Shown here: positions 49,231 to 60,762 of the stretch, piece after piece
How positions within the stretch are numbered: position 1 is the stretch's first letter
Layout: every line of letters starts with the position of its first letter
Origin: Aminithiophilus ramosus
GTDB lineage: Bacteria; Synergistota; Synergistia; Synergistales; Aminithiophilaceae
Direction of reading: 5' to 3'
Assembly (NCBI RefSeq): GCF_018069705.1
Contig: NZ_CP072943.1
Span: 2,233,453-2,297,452, forward strand
Length of the DNA stretch: 64,000 bases
Notes under the pieces: generated by a model
Told to the model about the DNA's origin: nothing
What the model saw: only the letters and a program-made list of their open reading frames with translations
Databases searched by the model: none
Made by a program: the position numbers and the translations under genes

Positions 49231-49677
49231 TCACTTCCCTTCCAGAAGGGTCTTCAGCCCCTGGAGGGCCAGGATGTAGCCCGAGGCGCCGAATCCCATG
49301 ACGAGGCCGGCGGCGACGGCGGTGAGATGGCTTTCGTGGCGGAAGGCCTCTCGGGCGGCCGTGTTGCTGAGATGGACTTCGATGACGGGGACGGAGACGG
49401 CGGCGACGGCGTCGCGAAGGGCGACGCTCGTGTGGCTGTAGGCGGCGCCGTTGAGGACGATGCCGTCGGCCTCGTCGCCTCCCCTCTGGACCCAGTCGAC
49501 GAGATCGCCCTCGTGGTTGCTCTGGAAACAGCGCACCTCCAGGCCTCTTTCGGCCCCCCAGGCGCGGCAGTTTCCGTCGATCTCGTCGAGAGTCGTCGTG
49601 CCGTAGACGGAGGGCTCGCGACGTCCCAGAAGGTTCAGATTCGGTCCGTTGACGACGAAGAGAACGTTGCGTTCCAC
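49231..49677 (-). CDS. aroQ: 3-dehydroquinate dehydratase, type II
   Basis: 148 residues, typical. NGPNLNLLGRREPSVYG with catalytic Y25, SNHEGDLVDW, NGAAYSHTSVALRDA and IEVHLSN with the catalytic His. Dehydrates 3-dehydroquinate in the shikimate pathway. GTG at 49677 overlaps the end of aroKB by 43 bases, with GAGGAGGTG as ribosome site inside aroKB. Last gene of the aromatic operon. Confidence 0.93.
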   Translation of the reverse strand: MERNVLFVVNGPNLNLLGRREPSVYGTTTLDEIDGNCRAWGAERGLEVRCFQSNHEGDLVDWVQRGGDEADGIVLNGAAYSHTSVALRDAVAAVSVPVIEVHLSNTAAREAFRHESHLTAVAAGLVMGFGASGYILALQGLKTLLEGK

Positions 49678-51227
49678 AGGAGCACCTCCTCGTAGGCTTT
49701 TTTCAGGTCGGCCAGGGGCACTTCCTCGACGACGGCCTTCCGCCCCTCGCGGGGAAGGACGAGGCGGGGCCGTCCTCCCTCGAATTTCTTGTCCCTCTTC
49801 AGGTGCCCCTCGATGGCGCCCCAGGGAAGGTCGGGGCGCCAGGGCAGGCCCAATCGCCTCAGGAGGGACAGGAGGCGACCCGTCGTCGTCTCCTCGACGA
49901 GGCCCATTTTTTCGGCCAGGACGGTGACGACGACGAGGCCTGCCGCGACGCCGTCGCCGTGGCTCCACCGTCCGTAGGCCGACGCGGCCTCCAGGGCGTG
50001 TCCGACGGTGTGCCCCAGATTGAGGCGGGCCCTGGCGCCGCTCCGTTCCCTTTCGTCTTCGTCGACGAGGGCCATTTTGATGGCTCCACAGCGGCGGACG
50101 AGACGTTCCAGGACCTCTCCGTCCCGGTCGAGGAGAGAGGGCGCGTCTTTTTCCATCTCATCGAAGAGGGCCCCGTCCTCGCCGAGACCGTATTTGACGG
50201 CTTCGGCCAGTCCCTGACGGTAATCGCCGTCGGAAAGGGTCCGAAGAAGATCGACGTCGGCGACGACGAGACGGGGCTGATGGAAGGCGCCGACGAGGTT
50301 TTTTCCCTCGTCGAGGTTGACGCCCACCTTGCCGCCCAGAGAGCTGTCGAGCTGGGCCAGCAGCGTCGTGGGACAGTGGACGACGTCGACGCCGCGCATC
50401 CAGGTGGCGGCGGCGAACCCTGCGGCGTCTCCCACCGTCCCTCCCCCCAGGGCCAGGACCGATCCCGACCGGTCCAGTCCGGACCGGTCGAAGGCACCGT
50501 AGAGCTCCCGGACACGGTCGAGGCGCTTGGCCCCTTCCCCCCGCGGGAGAAGGCTCTCTCCGAGACGCTCGCCCAGAAGGGGACCGTAGAGAGGCCCCGT
50601 CAGCTCGTCGGCGACGACGAAGGGTCTGGAAGGCGCGCCGGGAAGGTCACGCCATCTTTTCAGGATGCCCCGGCCGACGAAGATCGTCCTGCCCGGAAGA
50701 GAGCGCGCCTCCCCCTCGCGAGGCGCACCTCGGAGACCGAGGCGCTCGGCGATGCGGCGGGCCGCCTCTTCGGCGTCGAGATCGTCGACGTCGAGAAGGA
50801 GGTCTCCTCTGGAGTAGGCCTCTTCCCGCGAGGCCAGAAGGGCCTCCATATCGCCCCCGGCCAGGAGGGGACGCCCTTCGCCCGAGCCGAGACGACGGCC
50901 GATCGTCTCGGGCCGGGCCCGGAGGATGACGAGACGCCCCGTGGCCAGAAGACGTCGGCGGCTCGCCTCGTCGACGAGGGTTCCGCCGCCGAGGGCCACG
51001 ACGAGCCCCTTGAGGTCGGCGATCTCCTCGACGAGACGGGCCTCGACATCGCGAAAAAAGGCTTCGCCCCTTTCGGCGAAGATGCGGGCTACGGTCAGGC
51101 CCAGGCGACTCTCGGCGAGGCCGTCCAGGTCGATAAAGGGACGGCCCGTCCTCTCGGCAAGGCGACGGCCCGTCGTCGTCTTGCCCGTTCCCATGAAACC
51201 GCCCAGGTAGACGTTGGGCTCACTCAC
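49635..51227 (-). CDS. aroKB: Shikimate kinase - 3-dehydroquinate synthase fusion
   Basis: 530 residues. Residues 1-170 are shikimate kinase: P-loop GGFMGTGKTTTGRRL, IDLDGLAE, GEAFFRDVE, LGGGTLVDE. Residues about 175-520 are dehydroquinate synthase: LALGGGTVGDAAGFAAATWMRG, PTTLLAQLDSSLGGKVGVNL, EAVKYGL and LNLGHTVGHALE with metal His residues. One chain thus does two non-consecutive steps. GTG at 51227 overlaps the aroC stop by 8 bases. Confidence 0.93.
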   Translation of the reverse strand: MSEPNVYLGGFMGTGKTTTGRRLAERTGRPFIDLDGLAESRLGLTVARIFAERGEAFFRDVEARLVEEIADLKGLVVALGGGTLVDEASRRRLLATGRLVILRARPETIGRRLGSGEGRPLLAGGDMEALLASREEAYSRGDLLLDVDDLDAEEAARRIAERLGLRGAPREGEARSLPGRTIFVGRGILKRWRDLPGAPSRPFVVADELTGPLYGPLLGERLGESLLPRGEGAKRLDRVRELYGAFDRSGLDRSGSVLALGGGTVGDAAGFAAATWMRGVDVVHCPTTLLAQLDSSLGGKVGVNLDEGKNLVGAFHQPRLVVADVDLLRTLSDGDYRQGLAEAVKYGLGEDGALFDEMEKDAPSLLDRDGEVLERLVRRCGAIKMALVDEDERERSGARARLNLGHTVGHALEAASAYGRWSHGDGVAAGLVVVTVLAEKMGLVEETTTGRLLSLLRRLGLPWRPDLPWGAIEGHLKRDKKFEGGRPRLVLPREGRKAVVEEVPLADLKKAYEEVLLWNATFSSSSTDRI

Positions 51228-52386
51228 GAAAGATCTCCCCCTTGCGGCGAAAGGCGGCGACGCGCTCGACGAACTCGGAGAGCCTGTCGCCGCCGAACTG
51301 CTCGGCCAGGGCGACGGCCGCCGTCCAGGCTCCGAGAGCCCTCCCGACGACGGCCGCGGCCGGAACGGCGCAGACGTCGCCCCGCTCGACATGGGCCGAC
51401 GCGGCCAGCCCCGTCCGGATGTCGACGGAATCCAGAGGGCGACGCAGGGTGGGGATGGGCTTCATGGCCGCCCGGAGAAGAATCTCCTCTCCGTTCGACA
51501 TGCCCCCCTCGATCCCTCCGGCCCTGTTGGTCCGGCGCCGCACCCCCCGGCCGTCGCGGACGATGGCGTCGTGAGCCCCGCTGCCGGGACGGTCGGCGAG
51601 GCGGAAGCCGTCGCCGATTTCGACGCCCTTGATGGCCGGGATGGACATGAGCGCGGCGGCGAAACGGCCGTCGAGACGGCGGTCCAGTTCGGCATAGGAC
51701 CCCACCCCGGCGGGCATCCCCGTCAGGGAGACGACGAAGGTCCCTCCCAGGGTATCGCCCTCGTCGCGGGCGGCGACGATGCGCTCGACGAGGGCGGCCT
51801 CGTCCTCTTCCCGGGCGCAGCCCAGGTCCGAGGCGGCGGCCCGGTCCCACTCCTCGTCACAGAGGGGACGGGTGCAGGAGAGGCCGCCGATGGAGTCGAC
51901 GGCCTCTCGGACGCCGATGCCGACGGTTTCCAGAAGGAGGCCGGCGACGACGCCGACGACGGTCCAGGCCGCCGTGGCCCGGGCGCTGGCCCGTTCGAGG
52001 ACGTTGCGGCAGTCGTCGTGGCCGTACTTGACGATCCCCGCCATGTCGGCATGTCCCGGTCGGGGACAGGTGGCGGCGCGGCACGCCGCCGCCTCGACAT
52101 CGACCGACTCGGCGTCGACGGCGGGACGCCATATCTCCCATTCGCTGTTGCCCAGGGAGAGGGCCAGAGGCGATCCCGTCGTCAGGCCGTCGCGCAGCCC
52201 TCCCCAGAAGGTCAGCTCGTCGCGCTCGAGGGCCATCCTCGGCCCCCGGCCGTAGCCGCGACGGCGGCGGGCCAGTTCGGAGGTGAAGCGCTCCCGGGGA
52301 AGGCGCAACCCCGCGGGAAGACCTTCGACGACGATGACGTAGCCCCGGCCGTGGGACTCTCCGCCGGTGAGGAAGCGCAGCGTCAT
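51220..52386 (-). CDS. aroC: Chorismate synthase
   Basis: 388 residues. FLTGGESHGRGYVIVVEGLPAG, RRRRGYGRGPRM (FMN/EPSP site), RASARATAAWTVVGVVA and GGIEGGMSNGE (reads AGGIEGGMSNGEEI) are signatures. Makes chorismate from EPSP with reduced FMN. ATG overlaps the aroE stop (ATGA). Confidence 0.95.
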   Translation of the reverse strand: MTLRFLTGGESHGRGYVIVVEGLPAGLRLPRERFTSELARRRRGYGRGPRMALERDELTFWGGLRDGLTTGSPLALSLGNSEWEIWRPAVDAESVDVEAAACRAATCPRPGHADMAGIVKYGHDDCRNVLERASARATAAWTVVGVVAGLLLETVGIGVREAVDSIGGLSCTRPLCDEEWDRAAASDLGCAREEDEAALVERIVAARDEGDTLGGTFVVSLTGMPAGVGSYAELDRRLDGRFAAALMSIPAIKGVEIGDGFRLADRPGSGAHDAIVRDGRGVRRRTNRAGGIEGGMSNGEEILLRAAMKPIPTLRRPLDSVDIRTGLAASAHVERGDVCAVPAAAVVGRALGAWTAAVALAEQFGGDRLSEFVERVAAFRRKGEIFRE

Positions 52387-53225
52387 CGCCCTTCCTCCAG
52401 GGCCCGCCTCATGACCTCCAGCGGAGCGGAACGTCCCGTGAAGAGGGAGAAAGCCCTCGCCCCCTGGCGGAGAAGGACCTCCTCGCCGCCGACGGCGAGG
52501 AGGCCCTCGGCAAGGGCGCCCTCGACGAGCTCCGTCTTCCCCCGCCTGGAGTAGACGAGATCGAGAAGAGGCGCCCCTTTGAGGGAACGAAGCAGACGCC
52601 GCAGATCGTCGCCGGGCCAGGCGTTGCCCTCCAGTCCCAGAGAGGTGGCGTTGACGACGACGTCGAAGGTCGATTCGTGAAAGTCGCGCCAGTCGACGAC
52701 GACGATGGCCCGCCTCCCCAGGGAGAGGGCCACGTCGTCGGCAAGACGGACCGCCCGCTCGGGACTCCGGTTGGCCACGAAAAGGACAGAGGCTCCCCGT
52801 GAGAGAAGGGCCACGGCCGCCGCCCTGGCCGAGCCTCCGGCGCCGAGGAGAAGGGCCCGCGTCCCCTTTCGGGGCAGGAGATCGAGGGCGCCCTCGACGC
52901 CGTCGATGTCGCTGTTGTACCCTTCGAGCCTTCCGTCGCGGAAGAGGACGACGTTGACGGCTCCCAGCGATCGGGCCCGAGGCTCGACGTCGTCACAGAG
53001 GGCGAAGGCCTCCTCTTTGTGGGGAACGGTCACGTTCGCCCCCAGGGCCCCCAGAGCGGCCAGCCCCTCCAGAGCGACACCGAGCCTCCCCGGCGGGACG
53101 TCGAAGGCCAGGTAGCGGGCGTCGATCCCCTCGTGGCGGAAGGCGGCGTTCTGCATGGCCGGCGAGAGGGAGTGATCGACGGGGTGGCCCAGAAGGGCGA
53201 CCAGAGCCGTCGTCGGACCGATCAC
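52383..53225 (-). CDS. aroE: Shikimate dehydrogenase
   Basis: 280 residues. LLGHPVDHSLSPAMQNAAF, the catalytic Lys in ANVTVPHKEEAF, GYNSDIDGVEGAL, NADP motif LLGAGGSARA and NATSLGL. GTG at 53225 overlaps the aroA stop (GTGA), with GAGGAGGA upstream. Confidence 0.95.
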   Translation of the reverse strand: MIGPTTALVALLGHPVDHSLSPAMQNAAFRHEGIDARYLAFDVPPGRLGVALEGLAALGALGANVTVPHKEEAFALCDDVEPRARSLGAVNVVLFRDGRLEGYNSDIDGVEGALDLLPRKGTRALLLGAGGSARAAAVALLSRGASVLFVANRSPERAVRLADDVALSLGRRAIVVVDWRDFHESTFDVVVNATSLGLEGNAWPGDDLRRLLRSLKGAPLLDLVYSRRGKTELVEGALAEGLLAVGGEEVLLRQGARAFSLFTGRSAPLEVMRRALEEGR

Positions 53226-54490
53226 CGCCCGGTCCTCCTCCGCAGCTCGTCGAGGAAGCCGGGGTAGGAGATGGCCACACAGTCGACGTCGTCGATGAGG
53301 ACCTCCCCCTCGGCGACGAGACCGGCCACGGCGAGGGCCATGGCGACGCGATGATCGCCGCGGCTCGAGACGGCGCCGCCCTTCAGGGGATGACCGCCCT
53401 CGATGACCCATCCGTCGGGCCGTTCCTCGACGGCCGCCCCCAGAGCCGACAGCCCCTCGGCCATGGCGGCGATTCGGTCCGACTCCTTGACGCGCAGCTC
53501 GGCGGCGCCTCGGACCTCCGTCACGCCTCGGGCCTGCGTGGCGGCCACGGCCAGAAGGGGCAGCTCGTCGACGAGAAGGGGAATCTCCGTCCCGTCGACG
53601 GCCGTCGCCTTCAGCGACGAGGACCGGACCGTCACCGTTCCCGTCGGCTCTCCCCCGGAGGGATTTCCGGGCAGGACGTCGCAGTCGAGGCCCATCCGCT
53701 CCAGGACGGCCAGGAGGCCCGTCCGGGTCGGATTGAGATTGACGCCCTCGATGGAAAGATCCGATCCGGCCAAAAGGGAGGCGGCGACGATCCAGAAGGC
53801 CGCCGAGGAGAAATCGCCGGGAAGGGTCCACCGTCCCCCGGGAAGGTCGTCGCAGGGGAAGACGGCCACGGCCTCGCCCTCCCTCTTGAGGGGAACGCCG
53901 AGGTAGTCGAGCATGATCTCCGTGTGGTCCCGGCTCCGCCGGGGCTCGACGACGGTGACGCTTCCCTGGGCCGAAAGCCCGGCCAGAAGAAGGGCCGACT
54001 TGACCTGGGCGCTGGCCATGGGCAGGGTGTAGAGGCCGCCGGTGAGGCGCGTCCCCCGCACGGAAAGGGGCAGTTTCGTCCCGCCGTCGCAGCCGTCGAT
54101 GCGGGCCCCCAGCGTCCGCAGAGGGTCGACGACGCGGCTCATGGGACGGCGGCGGAGGCTGGCGTCGCCGGTGATGACGGAGAAGACGCCGGGGATGCCC
54201 GACAGAAGGCCGCAGAGGAGGCGGGCCGTCGTCCCCGAATTTCCGGCGTCGAGAAGGCCTCCCTCGGCGAGGGGACCGTTCCGACGGACGCGGACCCGGT
54301 CTCCTTCGCGCTCGACGGCGACGCCGAGGCGCCTCAGGCAATCGAGCGTGCTGGCGCAGTCGGCTCCGTTCGAGAAGTGGTCCACCTCGATGCCCTCCCG
54401 CGAGAGGGCTCCGACGAGGGCGGCTCTATGGGAAATCGATTTGTCTCCGGGAACGGTGATCGTTCCTCTCAGCGGCTCGGCTCGGCTCAT
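53222..54490 (-). CDS. aroA: 3-phosphoshikimate 1-carboxyvinyltransferase (EPSP synthase)
   Basis: 422 residues. VPGDKSISHRAALVGAL, LDAGNSGTTARLLCG, SAQVKSALLLAGL, and ELRVKESDRIAAMAEGL are the conserved motifs. Transfers the enolpyruvyl group of PEP to shikimate 3-phosphate; target of glyphosate in known enzymes. ATGA overlap with tyrA. Confidence 0.95.
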   Translation of the reverse strand: MSRAEPLRGTITVPGDKSISHRAALVGALSREGIEVDHFSNGADCASTLDCLRRLGVAVEREGDRVRVRRNGPLAEGGLLDAGNSGTTARLLCGLLSGIPGVFSVITGDASLRRRPMSRVVDPLRTLGARIDGCDGGTKLPLSVRGTRLTGGLYTLPMASAQVKSALLLAGLSAQGSVTVVEPRRSRDHTEIMLDYLGVPLKREGEAVAVFPCDDLPGGRWTLPGDFSSAAFWIVAASLLAGSDLSIEGVNLNPTRTGLLAVLERMGLDCDVLPGNPSGGEPTGTVTVRSSSLKATAVDGTEIPLLVDELPLLAVAATQARGVTEVRGAAELRVKESDRIAAMAEGLSALGAAVEERPDGWVIEGGHPLKGGAVSSRGDHRVAMALAVAGLVAEGEVLIDDVDCVAISYPGFLDELRRRTGR

Positions 54491-55347
54491 GGTCTCATCC
54501 TCCTGAAAGTACGGCTCAGGGCCGCTTCTCGTCTCGAGGCCCCCAGTCGGGCCAGATCCTCCATCTCGTCGGCCGTCGATCGCCTCATCTGCTGCAGAGT
54601 GGCGATGAGGCGGTCGAGACAGCCTTCCAGCGCCTCGTTCTCGGCCCAGAGATCGGCCGTCATCCAGGCCGGGCCCGCGGCGACGCGCGTCGTGTCGCGA
54701 AAGCCTCCCCCGGCGAGAAGGGCGAAATCGGGGCGGCGGTCCAGTTCCTCTCCCGCGGCGAGGGCCAGGGCCGTCGCCGTCAGGAGGGGCAGGTGGCTGA
54801 CGCAGGCCGTGGCCCCGTCGTGATCGTCGGGACCGAGAAGGCCCGACTCGGCCCCGATGATCCGGGCCAGCTCACGGGCCAGGTCGACGACCTCCCCGTC
54901 GGTCCTTTCGTCGGCGACGACGGCGCAGAAGGCCCCTCGGAAGAGCTCGCCGTCGGCGTTGTCGATGCCGCCCCTCTCCCGGCCCGCCATGGGGTGGAAC
55001 CCGGCGTAGCGCCCCGAAAAAAGGGGAGACAGGACCCGAAAGGCCCGGGCCTGAACGCTGGCCGCGTTGAAGACGACAGGGAGGGCCCCGGACCGGAATA
55101 TCGCCTCCGCCGTCCCGACGACGTGGCGCGGAGGCAGGGCCAGGACGACGGCGTCGCAGCGGGAGCACAGAGCCTCAAGCGAAGAGGCCGCCTCGTCGAC
55201 GGCCCCCAGGACAAGGGCTCGGCGGAGAGCGTCGCCGTCAAGGTCCCAGCCGAGGACGGAGGCCGCCCTGCCCCTCAGGGCCAGACCGAGAGAGCCGCCG
55301 ATGAGCCCCGTTCCGACGATGCCTAGATGGCGATCCCCAAGCCGCAC
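54487..55347 (-). CDS. tyrA: Prephenate dehydrogenase
   Basis: 286 residues. NAD motif IVGTGLIGGSLGLAL (about 10-24), FHPMAGRERGG, catalytic His in CVSHLPLL, and GGGFRDTTRVA. No ACT domain is present, so feedback control is more likely at the DAHP synthase and by the leader. GTG at 55347 overlaps the DAHP synthase end by 25 bases with GGAGGAGG upstream. Its presence makes tyrosine the natural end product of this operon. Confidence 0.92.
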   Translation of the reverse strand: MRLGDRHLGIVGTGLIGGSLGLALRGRAASVLGWDLDGDALRRALVLGAVDEAASSLEALCSRCDAVVLALPPRHVVGTAEAIFRSGALPVVFNAASVQARAFRVLSPLFSGRYAGFHPMAGRERGGIDNADGELFRGAFCAVVADERTDGEVVDLARELARIIGAESGLLGPDDHDGATACVSHLPLLTATALALAAGEELDRRPDFALLAGGGFRDTTRVAAGPAWMTADLWAENEALEGCLDRLIATLQQMRRSTADEMEDLARLGASRREAALSRTFRRMRP

Positions 55348-56372
55348 CGGGCCTCCTCCTCTCCGGCGGCGAGAGCTCCGGCCAGATGGCGGACGCGGCC
55401 CATGAGGGCGGCGAAGGCGGGGATGTCGAGCGACTGGGGACCGTCGCAGAGGGCCTCCTCGGGGGCGCAGTGGACTTCGATGATGAGTCCGTCGGCCCCG
55501 GCGGCCAGGGCGGCCAGGCTCATGGGAAGGATCAGCTCGCGCCGTCCCGTGGCGTGGCTGGGATCGACGACGACGGGCAGATGACTCAGCGACTTGACGA
55601 GGGGAATGACGCTCAGGTCGAGCGTGTTGCGGGTGCTCTTGTCGAAGCTGCGGATGCCTCGCTCGCAGAGAACGACGCGCGAATTCCCCCCGGCCAGGAT
55701 GTACTCGGCGGCCTGAAGCCACTCGTCGACGGTGGAGGCCATGCCCCGCTTGAGCAGGACAGGCCTGTCGACGCGGCCCAGGGCCTTGAGCAGGCTGAAG
55801 TTCTGCATGTTCCGCGTCCCCACCTGGAGGATGTCGACGTGAGGGGCCAGCCACTCCACGTCCTCGGGAGCCATGACCTCGGTGATGATGGGAAGTCCCG
55901 TGGCCTTCCGGGCCTCGAGGAGAAGGGCGATCCCCTCGCTTCCGAGCCCCTGGAAGGCATAGGGATTGGAGCGGGGCTTGAAGGCGCCGCCTCTGAGGAC
56001 GGAAGCGCCCGAGGCCTTCACGCCTCGGGCCGTCTCGAGAAGCTGCCGGCGGCTTTCGACGGAACAGGGTCCGGCCATGACGAGAGGGACGCCCTGACCG
56101 AGAATCAGGCCGTCGGCAAGCTCCATGGCGGGCCGGGAGGCGAAGACGTCGCGGCTGGCGAGGGGGAAGGAGCACTTCGTCTCGTGAAGGGCCACCACGC
56201 CGGGCAGAGCGGCGAGGGGAGCCTTGTCGGCGTGGAGATCGACGGCGACGACACAGGGGCCTTCGGGCCAGGGGACGACGCGGGCCTGTCCCCCGCGGCT
56301 TTCGATGTTCTCGCAGACGCGGGCCACTTCCAGGCTGTTGGCGTTGCAGGTCATTTCGACGACGGTCATCAT
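55323..56372 (-). CDS. aroF: 3-deoxy-7-phosphoheptulonate (DAHP) synthase, type I-beta with N-terminal regulatory domain
   Basis: 349 residues. Residues about 1-75 form a ferredoxin-like/ACT-like domain as in the Thermotoga-type enzyme, where it binds tyrosine or phenylalanine. Catalytic barrel: MAGPCSVES, RGGAFKPRSNPYAFQG, VGTRNMQNF, LLKRGM, DPSHATG. First committed step of the aromatic pathway and first gene of the operon. ATG at 56372 has AGGAGG 8 bases upstream. It is preceded by the attenuator hairpin and leader peptide described below. Confidence 0.95.
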   Translation of the reverse strand: MMTVVEMTCNANSLEVARVCENIESRGGQARVVPWPEGPCVVAVDLHADKAPLAALPGVVALHETKCSFPLASRDVFASRPAMELADGLILGQGVPLVMAGPCSVESRRQLLETARGVKASGASVLRGGAFKPRSNPYAFQGLGSEGIALLLEARKATGLPIITEVMAPEDVEWLAPHVDILQVGTRNMQNFSLLKALGRVDRPVLLKRGMASTVDEWLQAAEYILAGGNSRVVLCERGIRSFDKSTRNTLDLSVIPLVKSLSHLPVVVDPSHATGRRELILPMSLAALAAGADGLIIEVHCAPEEALCDGPQSLDIPAFAALMGRVRHLAGALAAGEEEARCGLGIAI

Positions 56373-56403
56373 CTCTCGCACCTCCTGAAATTTTTCAATA
56401 CAG

Positions 56404-56445
56404 AAAAAGGCCGGAACCTGGATGTGAAAATCCGGTTCCGGCCTT
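56404..56445 (-). terminator. Attenuator hairpin with U-run in the aromatic operon leader
   Basis: Minus strand: AAGGCCGGAACCGGA (56445-56431), loop, TCCAGGTTCCGGCCTT (56422-56407), i.e. 15 bp with one bulge, followed by TTTTT (56408-56404). It lies about 30 bases before the DAHP synthase ATG and 46 bases after the leader peptide stop, so it must be read through for operon expression. Confidence 0.85.
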
Positions 56446-56491
56446 CGCCATTCGATCCCATTTCCGACGGGGTACGTCGATGGACTCTCTA

Positions 56492-56632
56492 TCAGGCGGC
56501 GATGGGTTTCGATTCAGCCGATCTCGGATTTCCACGTGATTTTGGACCACTGGCGTAATAGCGCCACTGGCCGTCGGTAAAGTAATAGCTCACGCTGCAG
56601 AGACCTTGCATGGTCCTGTCGGAAACCGTCAT
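56492..56632 (-). CDS. Leader peptide of the aromatic amino acid operon (46 aa, Tyr/Phe/Trp cluster)
   Basis: ATG at 56632 with AGGGAGG 8 bases upstream; 46 codons; TGA at 56494-56492. Within residues 16-26 the sequence YYFTDGQWRYY has six aromatic residues of eleven (four Tyr, one Phe, one Trp), with two Tyr-Tyr pairs. It lies about 48 bases after the predicted transcription start and ahead of an intrinsic terminator and of DAHP synthase/TyrA. This is the layout of trp- or phe-type attenuators: ribosome stalling at Tyr codons would prevent the terminator. The rest of the peptide is unremarkable. Too short for ordinary gene calling. Function inferred from architecture only. Confidence 0.75.
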   Translation of the reverse strand: MTVSDRTMQGLCSVSYYFTDGQWRYYASGPKSRGNPRSAESKPIAA

Positions 56633-56686
56633 TCGGCTGACCTCCCTTCCTCATCGCTTCGCCCCGCAGGGCCCTGTTGGCAAACC

Positions 56687-56714
56687 ATTCTACCGGGCCC
56701 GCCCCTTTTGTCAA
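56687..56714 (-). promoter_or_regulatory. Promoter of the aromatic amino acid operon
   Basis: Minus strand TTGACA (56714-56709), 16-base spacer, TAGAAT (56692-56687): a perfect -35 and a 5/6 -10 match. Predicted start near 56680. The IS target duplication begins at the base next to the -35 box (56715). Confidence 0.8.
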
Positions 56715-56731
56715 GAGGAACGGTTACAAAA
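56715..56731 (+). repeat. Left 17-bp target-site duplication of the insertion sequence
   Basis: GAGGAACGGTTACAAAA, identical to 58251-58267. The long, exact duplication shows a recent insertion. Confidence 0.85.
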
Positions 56732-58250
56732 TGTCGCCGGACAATGGTATTGTCACTCGTGAAGAGGACAGGGAAAATGTCACTTATGACGACCAGGAGA
56801 GACCTACTCATGAAGACAAAAGAAGCAAGGCGCTTGGGGTTGGTGGAAGAGGCTGTCGCGGGCAACCTGACGGTTCAGGAGGTGGCCGATCGGCTCGGTC
56901 TGAGCCGCCGTCAGGTCTTTCGGCTCAAACGACGCTACCGGGAAGAAGGAGCGCAGGGGCTCCTGCACAAGGGACGAGGCAAACCGTCCCGGCGCAGAAT
57001 CTCTCAGGAGACACGGGATTTCGTCGTCAGTCTGGCCAAGGGTCTTTACAGGGATACGAGCTGTCAGCACATGGCCGAACTCCTTGCCGAAGAGCATGAT
57101 CTCGTGCTGAGCGCCAAGAGCATCGCCCGTTTCCTTCGCGCGGAGAACCTGTCCCTCGTTCATCGCCACCGGGCCCCGAAGCGGCGTTCCCGCAGGGTCC
57201 GACGGTCCCGACGAGGCGATCTGGTCCAGATGGACGCCTCTCCTTTCGATTGGTTCGAGATCGGTGAGCGTTGCACTCTCCACGGCGTGATTGACGATGC
57301 CACAGGAGAGGTCCTCGGTCTGTGGATGGCCAGGAATGAGTGCCTCTTCGGCTACTTCCGCGTGCTCCGTCAGATGCTTGATCGCCACGGCGTGCCTCGC
57401 GAGCTTTACGCCGACCGCCACACCATCTTCCTTTCTCCCAAGTCGGAAAAACTGACGATCAAGGAGGAGCTGGAGGACTCGGCGCCTGTAACCCAGTTCG
57501 GCCGCGCTCTGGAGGTTCTCGGAACTCGCTATGTCCCTGCAGGGTCTCCCCAGGCGAAGGGGCGGATCGAAAGGCTCTGGGGAACTCTTCAGGATCGTCT
57601 CGTCGTCGCCTTCCGACGGGCCGGAGTGAAAACGATCGAAGAGGCCAACGTCCTGCTCGCCGCCTACCCGGGAGAGGTCCATAACCCGAGGTTCGCTCGT
57701 CCTCCCGCAGAGGGGGCATCTGCCTTTCTCCCTCCGCCGGACGGCCCCGCTCTCGATCTCCTCCTGACTCGCCAGACCGACCGGAAGGCCTCGGGAGACT
57801 CGACGATTTCCCTCGACGGAAAACTGTACTCCCTGATAGGCCCCCGCAGACGCCCCCTGCTTCTTGCCAGGGGACAGGCGGTCAAGGTCATCGAGAAGCT
57901 CGACGGGAAACTCCTGGCTCTTGTCCATGACGGGCTCTACGATCTCGCAGCCGTCGACAAAGAGCCCCCTGCGACTCCCCCGCCTGTCATCGAGACGAAA
58001 ACAGGCACTCCATGCAAAACGAAGAAGCAGAGGAAGCCGGCGGCAGACCATCCCTGGCGACAGAATCCCGCTCCTCCTGCCGCGGCGGTCGGCTCCGAGC
58101 AAGGGACGGGTTCCCCTCCCTAAAAGGACATCCGCCGCGGAGGAAAGCCAAGGCGGGCTGTTGACGGGGGCGATTTCAGCCCCTCGAAAGCGACACTTTC
58201 ATTGTCCCTCAGACCCTCTTTTTAGATGACATTTTTAGTGTCCCTTGACA
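56732..58250 (+). mobile_element. Insertion sequence, ISNCY / IS1202-like, 1519 bp
   Basis: Ends start with TGTC and form imperfect inverted repeats of about 26 bases (left 56732-56757, right 58250-58225; 16 of 26 match, including TGTC, GGACA and TGTCA blocks). One transposase gene. A 17-bp duplication flanks it. Long duplications are known for IS1202-related elements, some of which make 15-18 bp ones; that subgroup fit is from memory. It sits between the aromatic operon promoter and the EIIC-EAL gene. Confidence 0.85.
56810..58123 (+). CDS. ISNCY/IS1202-type DDE transposase
   Basis: 437 residues. N-terminal helix-turn-helix NLTVQEVADRLGLSRRQVFRL (about 18-38, written here within limits as TVQEVADRLGLSRRQVFRL), basic RRSRRVRRSRRGDLVQ, then an rve/DDE core: D in VQMDASPFDWF, D in ELYADRHTIF, E in KGRIERLWGTLQ. 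C-terminal basic Pro-rich tail with DHPWR. ATG at 56810 after AGGAGAG; upstream in-frame starts would run into the left terminal repeat. Appears intact. Confidence 0.88.
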   Translation: MKTKEARRLGLVEEAVAGNLTVQEVADRLGLSRRQVFRLKRRYREEGAQGLLHKGRGKPSRRRISQETRDFVVSLAKGLYRDTSCQHMAELLAEEHDLVLSAKSIARFLRAENLSLVHRHRAPKRRSRRVRRSRRGDLVQMDASPFDWFEIGERCTLHGVIDDATGEVLGLWMARNECLFGYFRVLRQMLDRHGVPRELYADRHTIFLSPKSEKLTIKEELEDSAPVTQFGRALEVLGTRYVPAGSPQAKGRIERLWGTLQDRLVVAFRRAGVKTIEEANVLLAAYPGEVHNPRFARPPAEGASAFLPPPDGPALDLLLTRQTDRKASGDSTISLDGKLYSLIGPRRRPLLLARGQAVKVIEKLDGKLLALVHDGLYDLAAVDKEPPATPPPVIETKTGTPCKTKKQRKPAADHPWRQNPAPPAAAVGSEQGTGSPP

Positions 58251-58267
58251 GAGGAACGGTTACAAAA
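58251..58267 (+). repeat. Right 17-bp target-site duplication
   Basis: GAGGAACGGTTACAAAA, identical to 56715-56731. The following 58268-58476 is host DNA without a gene. Confidence 0.85.
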
Positions 58268-58476
58268 TCATCGGGCCGATTTGATTTCAAAGCCGGCAGG
58301 GCAGCCCGGCGGCCGCTCAGACGGCGACGGAGACACGACCTCCGCCTCTCCGGGGCGGGCGCGGGCAGGAGACCTGCGCCCCGGGGAAAGGCGAGGACGC
58401 CGATCCGTCGCCCCGGCGGGGCGGGAAGATCCGGCCGCACCTCTCGCCGACGGCGATGCCCCCGTTCCCCAATCCC

Positions 58477-60613
58477 TCACCTTTTCCCGGCCTCGCCCTT
58501 TTCCCGGGGGGAACTCTCCCTCGCCAGGACGAGAAAATCCTCGAAGGGAACGGCAGGGCTGTAGAGATAGCCCTGGTACTGGGTGCAGCCCAAGCGCTCC
58601 AGAAGGCTCTGCTGCTCCTTCGTCTCCACGCACTCCCCCAGAACGGTGAAATCGAGAGCTCGCGACAGGGAGACGATCGTGGCGATGATCTCGCCGCACC
58701 GGGGGTTGTCCTTGAGTCCGCGGACGAGAGATCCATCCAGCTTGACCATGTCGAAGGCACTGTTCTGCAGGTACTTGATGGAGGTATGGCCCATGGAGAA
58801 ATCGTCGATGACCAGCGGAAACCCCATGGCGCGGATGCGCCGACTCTTCGCCTCCGTCTCCCTGTCGGAAAGGAGCGCCTTCTGCTCGGTGATTTCGATC
58901 CACAGTTCGTTTCGCCCCACGGAGCCGTCGGCGATCAGCTCTCCCAGAAAGGCCTCGAAGGCCCCCTCGTAGAAGGTGGGGACCGTCACGTTGACGCAGG
59001 TCTTGAGAGGCCGCCCCAAGGTCCGGCGAAGGACGGCCATGTCGCGGACGGCCCTCCGCAGGACATAGCATTCCAGGTCGTAGAGAAAGCCGGCCTCTTC
59101 GGCCAGGCGAACGGCCAGGGGGGGGGTAGATCTTCCCGAAAAACCCGTGATTCCAGCGCAACAGGGCTTCCGACCCGACGCAGCGCCCCCTGTCGTCGTA
59201 CTGGGGCTGATAATGGAGCGCCAGTTCGTGGCGCTCCAGAGCGCGATTCAGGTCCGAGGCGAGCCTCTTGGCGACGAGTCCGAGCGCCCCTCCTGAGGCC
59301 ATGAGACGGACCGGCACGAGGGTCTCCTCGCTCCGCTCCAGGAGGCCGACGAGGCGGTTCAGGTCGGCCGAGGCGTGGCGGAGTTTCTGCTCCTCGTAGA
59401 GGACGATGAAGGGACGGTAGACGAAAAGGCCCAGGACAAGATTGAATCCCTGCAGGAGGCTGCCCCGGAGGGAGCCGGTGGCGAGGTAGCCCCCGAGGAA
59501 CACCGGCGTCGTCCAGGGCACCGCCCGGGAGGGGAGGGGAACGAACCCCAGGGCCATGGCTCCGTAGGAGAGGAGCGTCGTCAGCAGGGGCACGACGATG
59601 AAGGGAACGAGCAGATGGAGGTTGTAGACGACGGGCAGCCCGAAGAGCATCAGTTCGTTGACGTTGAAGAGCATCGGGACGAAGGCGATCTTCGAAAGGG
59701 CCCTGTCGCCCCGGTCCCGGCTGAAAAGAATCAGGGCGAGAAGAAGACAGAGGGAGCTCCCGCAGCCGCCCATCAGGACGAAGACGTCGATGAAGGTCTT
59801 GGAGACGATCTCCGCAGGAGGCTGCCCCTGGGCTGTCAGGGCCAGGTTGGCCGCCATGGCCGGTTCGAGGAGCCTTCGGGAGACGCCTTCGAGGACGTTG
59901 CTCCCGTGAACGCCGAAAAACCAGAGCGAACTGGAGGCCAGGACGAAGGAGAGGGCCCTGGGAAGGCCGCTCCCGATGCGGGAGAAAAGACGGGTCGCCC
60001 CGTCGACGAACAGAGCCTGAAGGCTCGTGACGTGCAGGACCCGGACGAGGACGAGATCGAGAAGGGCGACGGTCGCGACGGCCAGGAGAGAGGGGAGAAC
60101 GACGGAGACGGCGTCGCTGAAGTCCGCATCGGCGCCGTCCGAATAGAGCCGAAGCCCCCGGAGCCTCCTGCCGCTCCAGAAGTCGAACAGCGACGTCGAA
60201 AGGAGGGCGGCGACGATGGCCGTGAACATGCCGTCGATGCCCATCGTCTCGAAAGCGACGGTCACGTCGGGAAAACCGCTCAGGATGGCGAAGGAGGCAA
60301 GGGAGACGAGGGGAAAGGCCAGAGCCTTCTCCTCCCTGTCGGGCTCCATCCGCGCCCGGCTCAGGGCGGTGAAAAGCGCCATATAGACCGAAAGCATGCC
60401 GAAGGTGGCGTCGACGAGGAGAGAGGCCAGATCGATCAGCGCGCCCGACGCGAAACGGGACAGGAAGCTCTGATAGGGAGGAAAGGGAAAGAACCGGAAC
60501 ACCAGGGAAAAAGAGCCTATCATGACGATCGGAATGGCCATGACGAGGCCCTTCCGTATGGATCGGACGAGGGTGCCGTCGGGCAGTTTTTTCCCGTAGA
60601 AAAGGTCGGGCAT
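58477..60613 (-). pseudogene. PTS EIIC-like membrane domain fused to EAL c-di-GMP phosphodiesterase, frameshifted at a C9 tract
   Basis: ATG at 60613 (AGGAGA upstream). Residues about 1-400 form a cellobiose-type EIIC domain: [44 protein letters not shown]. An EAL domain follows ([18 protein letters not shown]). At 59126-59118 (minus strand C9) the frame is lost; with C8 it would read [15 protein letters not shown] and continue to the stop at 58477, through [27 protein letters not shown] and ECVETKEQ, so all catalytic acids are intact. No transfer-chain EIIA/B domains are seen; the EIIC part may sense a sugar. The EAL is off in this copy unless slippage or a sequencing error is involved. Confidence 0.8.
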
Positions 60614-60762
60614 CGAGGCAGCTCTCCTGACTTTACGTTCTCCGATTCCGTCGAATGATGCCGTCTCCTGTCGCACCCGGCCGGAACCCTCTCACCTCCG
60701 CCCCGGTGAACGATCTTTCGGAAATCCCCGAAAGAGAGCGGGAACGAGGCAAATGCCCGCAA

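Follow-up and report, generated by a model that had tools for sequence, protein, structure and literature searches.

In the enterobacterial leaders trpL, pheL and hisL, a promoter and a leader ORF with tandem codons for the end product are followed by an intrinsic terminator ahead of the first gene, and the antiterminator takes the 5' arm of that terminator; the locus studied here is built in the same way. The principle of attenuation is old, while few descriptions exist of the layout that we report, of its distribution over several operons or of its occurrence in Synergistota. Stav et al. 2019 (PMC6429828) surveyed five genomes, including that of Thermovirga lienii (Synergistetes), and Fig. 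6b of that paper carries two candidate uORFs, F and Y, unanalysed, upstream of shikimate genes; its text, to the extent available, gives no mechanism, antiterminator or regulon and leaves the genome of each uORF unstated. Our element is likewise a Phe/Tyr uORF before shikimate genes, a Thermovirga genome carries the Synergistota aroF leader element (locus L089), and one of the published uORFs may be that leader. The first-pass annotation of this DNA knew of no described case in the phylum, which these candidates, as far as the available part of the paper goes, make doubtful. In Acholeplasma, the uORFC-13-1 motif upstream of aroF (PMC8632094) consists of a uORF and a terminator before a DAHP synthase gene, and attenuation was proposed for it. 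The literature that we found on attenuation in Synergistetes comprises only a study of His regulation (PMC9413887) and noncoding-RNA surveys, and we found no paper describing the antiterminator, spacing or regulon of the aroF leader.

The window, that is, the whole stretch of 64,000 nucleotides from Aminithiophilus ramosus that was analysed, contains the following parts, with promoter, ribosome site, leader ORF, terminator and aroF all on the minus strand:

56687..56714, minus strand: promoter, -35 box TTGACA (56714-56709), 16-nt spacer and -10 box TAGAAT (56692-56687), matching the consensus at 11/12 positions
56641..56648, minus strand: ribosome binding site of the leader ORF, AAGGGAGG, by sequence
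56492..56632, minus strand: leader peptide ORF of 46 codons, MTVSDRTMQGLCSVSYYFTDGQWRYYASGPKSRGNPRSAESKPIAA, from ATG at 56632 to TGA at 56492
56406..56446, minus strand: terminator stem-loop, GAAGGCCGGAACC / GGATTTTCACATCCA / GGTTCCGGCCTTT, from the minimum free energy structure (z = -4.3)
56404..56408, minus strand: U-tract of the terminator, TTTTT, by sequence
55323..56381, minus strand: aroF, DAHP synthase, the first gene (Pfam DAHP_synth_1, 3.4e-75)
49231..55326, minus strand: remainder of the operon, tyrA, aroA, aroE, aroC, an aroK-aroB fusion and aroQ (Pfam)

The first-pass annotation had named the promoter, the ribosome site, the 46-codon ORF (SYYFTDGQWRYY, with YYFTDGQWRYY at codons 16-26), the terminator and DAHP synthase, and all of them are present where it placed them. 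Its operon including TyrA does contain tyrA and is larger than that, with seven aromatic-biosynthesis genes by Pfam in the order aroF, tyrA, aroA, aroE, aroC, aroK-aroB fusion and aroQ (PDH, EPSP_synthase, Shikimate_dh, Chorismate_synt, SKI + DHQ_synthase and DHquinase_II for the six downstream genes), so that a single leader would govern nearly the whole shikimate pathway. The aroF ORF opens with GTG at 56381, and ATG at 56372 is the likelier start. Promoter-like sites number 2 in 1.4 kb against 0.3 expected. A pattern scanner missed the terminator because its loop is too long for the scanner.

A transposase-bearing insertion (56714-58268, with an ORF on the plus strand at 56606-58123) abuts the -35 box of the shikimate operon and is flanked by 19-bp direct repeats AGAGGAACGGTTACAAAAT at 56714-56732 and 58250-58268. 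The corresponding loci of the sister species (L004 and L005) have other sequence at this place and an identical -35 box, and the shikimate promoter therefore appears native. Further along, at 58268-60676 on the minus strand, lies an ORF resembling by eye a PTS IIC-type membrane protein with an EAL domain behind it; the latter domain runs on in another frame at 58477-59040, pointing to a frameshift or an error in the sequence.

Our analysis indicates with considerable confidence that the leader is a ribosome-mediated transcription attenuator responding to the supply of Tyr, with Phe. On comparative grounds we regard the mechanism as very probable and the amino-acid specificity as probable. The aromatic attenuator with a leader peptide that had been proposed ahead of the DAHP synthase operon is thus strongly supported by comparison, and sensing of Tyr (or Phe) supply is what we infer. 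The parts found are those of an attenuator, namely a translated ORF with its promoter and ribosome site, clustered codons for the end product, an intrinsic terminator before the first gene, and an exclusive antiterminator that is accessible on stalling.

DAHP synthase was sought in 183 genomes of the order. The first-pass annotation had named homologous operons without the ORF as a refutation, and the comparison did not refute it: both leader ORF and terminator are present at all 34 closer-type aroF homologues for which upstream sequence exists, all of them from one Synergistota order. The arrangement is therefore not due to chance. These loci have a TTGACA-type promoter, with TTGACA-TAnnnT at the same place, a purine-rich site upstream of the leader start and, in almost all, a T-run behind the terminator hairpin. 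All their leaders have [Y/F]-rich codons, followed in most by the motif F[TS]xG[QL]W[RL]Y(1-4)A[ST]G. With a covariance model of 68 positions, the element was located before aroF in 37 genomes of the phylum and only once in the window's own genome; the named records carrying it are Synergistota, Thermovirga and strain L-13 (CP074691.1) among them. Diverged copies stand before aroA-aroC in 8 genomes and before aroE in 2, in each case where the pathway is split, with leader peptides such as FVFEFAFSCDQGYYYYPLVCPVLETDRR (aroA-aroC) and FSYGRWYYSADGRCSYRNR (aroE). In these copies the hairpin arms are replaced by other complementary sequences and the constant Trp is lost. The loop still has its Tyr codons, and complementary segments of 6-12 bp persist (CTGGAAACCG with CGGTTTCCAG, for example, or GATGGAAACCGA with TCGGTTTCCATC). 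Tyr codons are present in 34/34 aroF leaders and 10/10 aroA/aroE copies, and Phe codons in many. Since the diverged copies keep the Tyr loop and not the Trp, Tyr (with Phe) is indicated as the sensed amino acid and the aromatic pathway as the target. Besides Tyr codons, the leader has Phe codons and one Trp codon, so Tyr may not be the sole signal.

The element occurs only before shikimate genes. A single pattern-scan match outside Synergistota, in Epibacterium, shares no loop and has no seen tie to aromatic genes, and we attribute it to chance; the weak covariance-model matches (E > 7e-4) resemble coding-region matches or chance ones, except for an aroE leader in genome G037. More distant DAHP synthase genes of Synergistota (L047, L049, L056, L059, L063, L064, L065, L070 and L073) have unrelated short leaders, such as MMNVSFFAAECYYFYFFGASRKVILCCQKADR and MLKFSGFDFAGFYYFYCYTRNKSDSCCINSHTEGI, with a terminator behind each. 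At L047, a stretch 5' of the Tyr/Phe codons pairs with a stretch 3' of them (GCAGC/GCTGC), a layout nearer to the classical trp arrangement.

What exactly competes with the terminator could be read from covariation. The first-pass annotation had offered two long-range antiterminators, in which either codons 3-5 (TTTCCGAC/GTCGGAAA) or codons 19-21 (CCGACGG/CCGTCGG) would pair with the region ahead of the terminator. Neither is conserved: the former is broken in both sister species and the latter exists only within the genus. The pairing that does covary joins codons 33-36 to the upper 5' arm and loop of the terminator:

56525..56536, minus strand: antiterminator segment 2a, CGTGGAAATCCG, codons 33-36 (R-G-N-P), pairing with 56434-56424
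56516..56520, minus strand: antiterminator segment 2b, CGGCT, pairing with GGCCG at 56443-56439
56424..56434, minus strand: antiterminator segment 3a, CGGATTTTCAC, in the terminator (upper part of its 5' arm, and its loop)

In the alignment, 93% of cells are paired in the helix CGTGGAAATCCG/CGGATTTTCAC and double changes occur in 5/11 pairs, while shuffled and slid controls score far below it. The segment 2b pairing (80% of cells paired) has no double changes; its helix does form in the fold of the RNA 3' of the stalled ribosome. The terminator itself has 92% of cells paired and changes on both sides in 7 pairs. We also tested segment 2 of 19 clade representatives against the terminators of other clades in 100,000 permutations. 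The summed duplex energy was -324.5 for own partners versus -257.7 (sd 10.5) for swapped ones, and no permutation (0/100,000) was as good. Each clade's segment 2 thus matches the terminator of that clade better than those of the others, and swapping partners between clades destroys the complementarity. The 3' half of the antiterminator sits in the non-coding terminator loop and has no other reason to track the coding half.

The antiterminator starts 17-23 nt (mode 19) past the last Tyr codon, alike in aroF, aroA and aroE leaders. A ribosome with a codon in its A site covers about 9-12 nt beyond that codon. Taken together, spacing and footprint imply that a stall would leave segment 2 just free, and that a step of a few codons would begin to cover it. 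The leader ORF runs through segment 2 and ends 25-64 nt past it.

The aromatic codons lie in two places:

56579..56587, minus strand: first aromatic cluster, Tyr16-Tyr17-Phe18 (TAT TAC TTT), Tyr/Phe-rich in all homologues with varying residue identity
56545..56572, minus strand: hairpin 1, GGCCAGTGGCG / loop CTATTA / CGCCAGTGGTC, from fold and covariation

The Tyr25-Tyr26 codons (56560-56555) are in and beside the loop of hairpin 1, which folds at -17.0 kcal/mol (z -4.4); 88% of its cells are paired, with both-side changes in 3 pairs of the alignment and double-sided changes in several species, for example the arms GGGGCA/UGCCCC of L040. Between species its loop is 7, 10 or 13 nt long and of no other length. 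The loop thus grows by whole codons, mostly Tyr or Phe, which argues that the region is translated. Leaders L012 and L016 (genomes G108 and G106) have lost one base after the Tyr codons, and the shifted frame turns the downstream peptide from HGNPSSGPAAVG-like to LEIRHRDLPPG, with TGGAAATCCG and its partner kept. Past the Tyr codons it is therefore the RNA, not the peptide, that is conserved. Likewise, the conserved leader residues G-Q-W...A-S-G are, to judge from the alignment, largely explained by the RNA hairpin around the Tyr codons. The Phe codon 5' of hairpin 1 is TTT in 31/31 sequences (alignment columns 73-75, window 56581-56579), the other leader Phe codons being TTT or TTC; no pairing partner was found for the invariant TTT.

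We propose the following sequence of events, in which stalling, read-through and tRNA charging as the signal are presumed. RNA polymerase would transcribe the leader while a ribosome translates the leader ORF. If charged Tyr-tRNA (and probably also Phe-tRNA) is scarce, the ribosome would stall at the aromatic codons, whose last members sit in the hairpin 1 loop. Its leading edge would end just short of segment 2, which would be free to pair with segment 3 as this emerges. Because this pairing takes up the terminator's loop and the upper part of its 5' arm, which make up segment 3, the terminator could then not form and the whole shikimate operon would be transcribed. With plentiful aromatic amino acids, ribosomes would traverse segment 2 inside the ORF and block the antiterminator at the critical moment; the terminator would form and transcription would stop.

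Folding with and without a stalled ribosome was a check that the first-pass annotation had recommended. RNA 3' of the stall in the window adopts the antiterminator fold (11 bp + 6 bp, -40.5 kcal/mol), and RNA starting beyond segment 2 adopts the terminator fold. Over 31 homologues, the mean antiterminator probability in RNA 3' of the stall is 0.87, the low values of L013 and L015 being due to a one-base shift in the alignment. However, the complete leader always prefers the terminator at equilibrium, and if RNA 5' of the ribosome can take part in the pairing, the focal sequence does not favour the antiterminator. The switch must therefore be kinetic, and the equilibrium fold of the complete leader, in which the terminator always wins, is not informative as evidence for switching.

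How would the antiterminator be kept from forming behind a ribosome that has moved on? We looked in the alignments for a conserved 1:2 structure, in which hairpin 1 or upstream codons would pair with segment 2, and found none. Hairpin 1 (56572-56545) ends 8 nt ahead of segment 2 (56536) in the window and lies upstream of it in the alignments; we did not find a hairpin of the trp type, with the control codons inside and sharing segment 2 with the 2:3 pairing. With no conserved structure occupying segment 2 after ribosome passage, the reading of plenty is the weakest step of the proposal, and a ribosome waiting at the leader stop codon would not cover segment 2 either. We also considered a hairpin at the stop codon, between segments 2 and 3, as a sensor of a ribosome at the stop. 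It is strong in a few clades (L018, z -5.2; L027, -3.9) and absent or shuffle-like in most, including the focal sequence, and so is not general; in some clades it may occupy segment 2 after ribosome passage.

Other explanations would put the conserved features to different use. The nascent peptide F-T-x-G-Q-W-R-Y-Y-A-S-G might bind free tyrosine within the exit tunnel and so stall the ribosome, like TnaC with tryptophan, and work through the same antiterminator. Its motif, about 12 residues long, is kept across ten families, beyond what control codons simply need, and TTT (Phe18) and TGG (Trp23) are invariant in the aroF copies. However, the codons for G-Q-W form one arm of a covarying hairpin and those for A-S-G the other, and when the arms change together the residues change with them (ASG to ASAP), so that the critical residues are not kept as peptide independently of the RNA. 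The motif is absent from the aroA copies (DQGYYYYPLV) and the aroE copies (RWYYSADG), and Tyr codons vary in number from 1 to 5. Since arrest of the TnaC type would moreover induce with excess, the wrong response for a biosynthetic operon, we consider such a peptide improbable. Almost equally improbable, and perhaps slightly more so, is an RNA that binds a ligand (a Tyr or chorismate riboswitch), or an antiterminator to which a protein binds, with hairpin 1 as the receptor and translation incidental. The high conservation of hairpin 1, its ability to fold by itself and the lack of a conserved 1:2 structure would suit such a receptor. Against this, its arms are wholly replaced in the aroA and aroE copies with the loop still a run of Tyr codons, loop length shifts by whole codons only, and the element has no match in Rfam beyond a chance hit and belongs to no Rfam family.

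The start, ribosome site and open frame kept in all homologues would also be expected of a small protein gene with a function of its own, its transcript merely ended by the terminator. We give this idea the least credence of all, since the N- and C-terminal halves diverge freely, the frame in G106 and G108 is shifted after the Tyr codons with the RNA segment kept, the antiterminator covaries with the terminator, and the element is found only before shikimate genes. Attenuation by a stalled ribosome accordingly remains our preferred reading. As a more general warning, strong conservation of leader-peptide residues can stem from RNA structure rather than from the peptide.

More generally, we lean towards the view that homologous Tyr-loop attenuators run the shikimate pathway of Synergistota, each operon having its own where the pathway is divided, and that these form a distinct architectural class, with control codons in a dedicated hairpin loop, a fixed footprint distance to the antiterminator and no 1:2 anti-antiterminator. 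If so, the main question becomes how a ribosome that is done translating prevents antitermination. Classical leader-peptide attenuation would be extended to tyrosine and to a poorly studied phylum, with one attenuator set over nearly the whole shikimate pathway and duplicated where the pathway is split. The fixed spacing between codons and antiterminator, together with the lack of a 1:2 structure, would offer a clean test case for relating ribosome position to termination.

Among the systems known to us, T-box riboswitches also read tRNA charging to set termination, whereas the putative sensor here is a translated ORF with its codons; the T-box covariance model RF00230 has no match in the window. 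The window's own genome has three T-boxes (G000:C1 809637-809866, 2044970-2045191 and 95421-95653), followed by genes that are argininosuccinate synthase-like (argG-like), threonine synthase-like and of lysine-type ATP-grasp (lysW/X-like); none was seen before aromatic genes of that genome. The uORFC-13-1 motif, likened to our element by description, belongs to another phylum and carries a run of Phe codons, in contrast to the Tyr codons here. From trpL, pheL and hisL the present leader differs in having Tyr (with Phe) for control codons and in placing these inside the hairpin 1 loop; in addition, hairpin 1 ends before segment 2, with no conserved 1:2 pairing to exclude 2:3, and a long ORF runs through segment 2.
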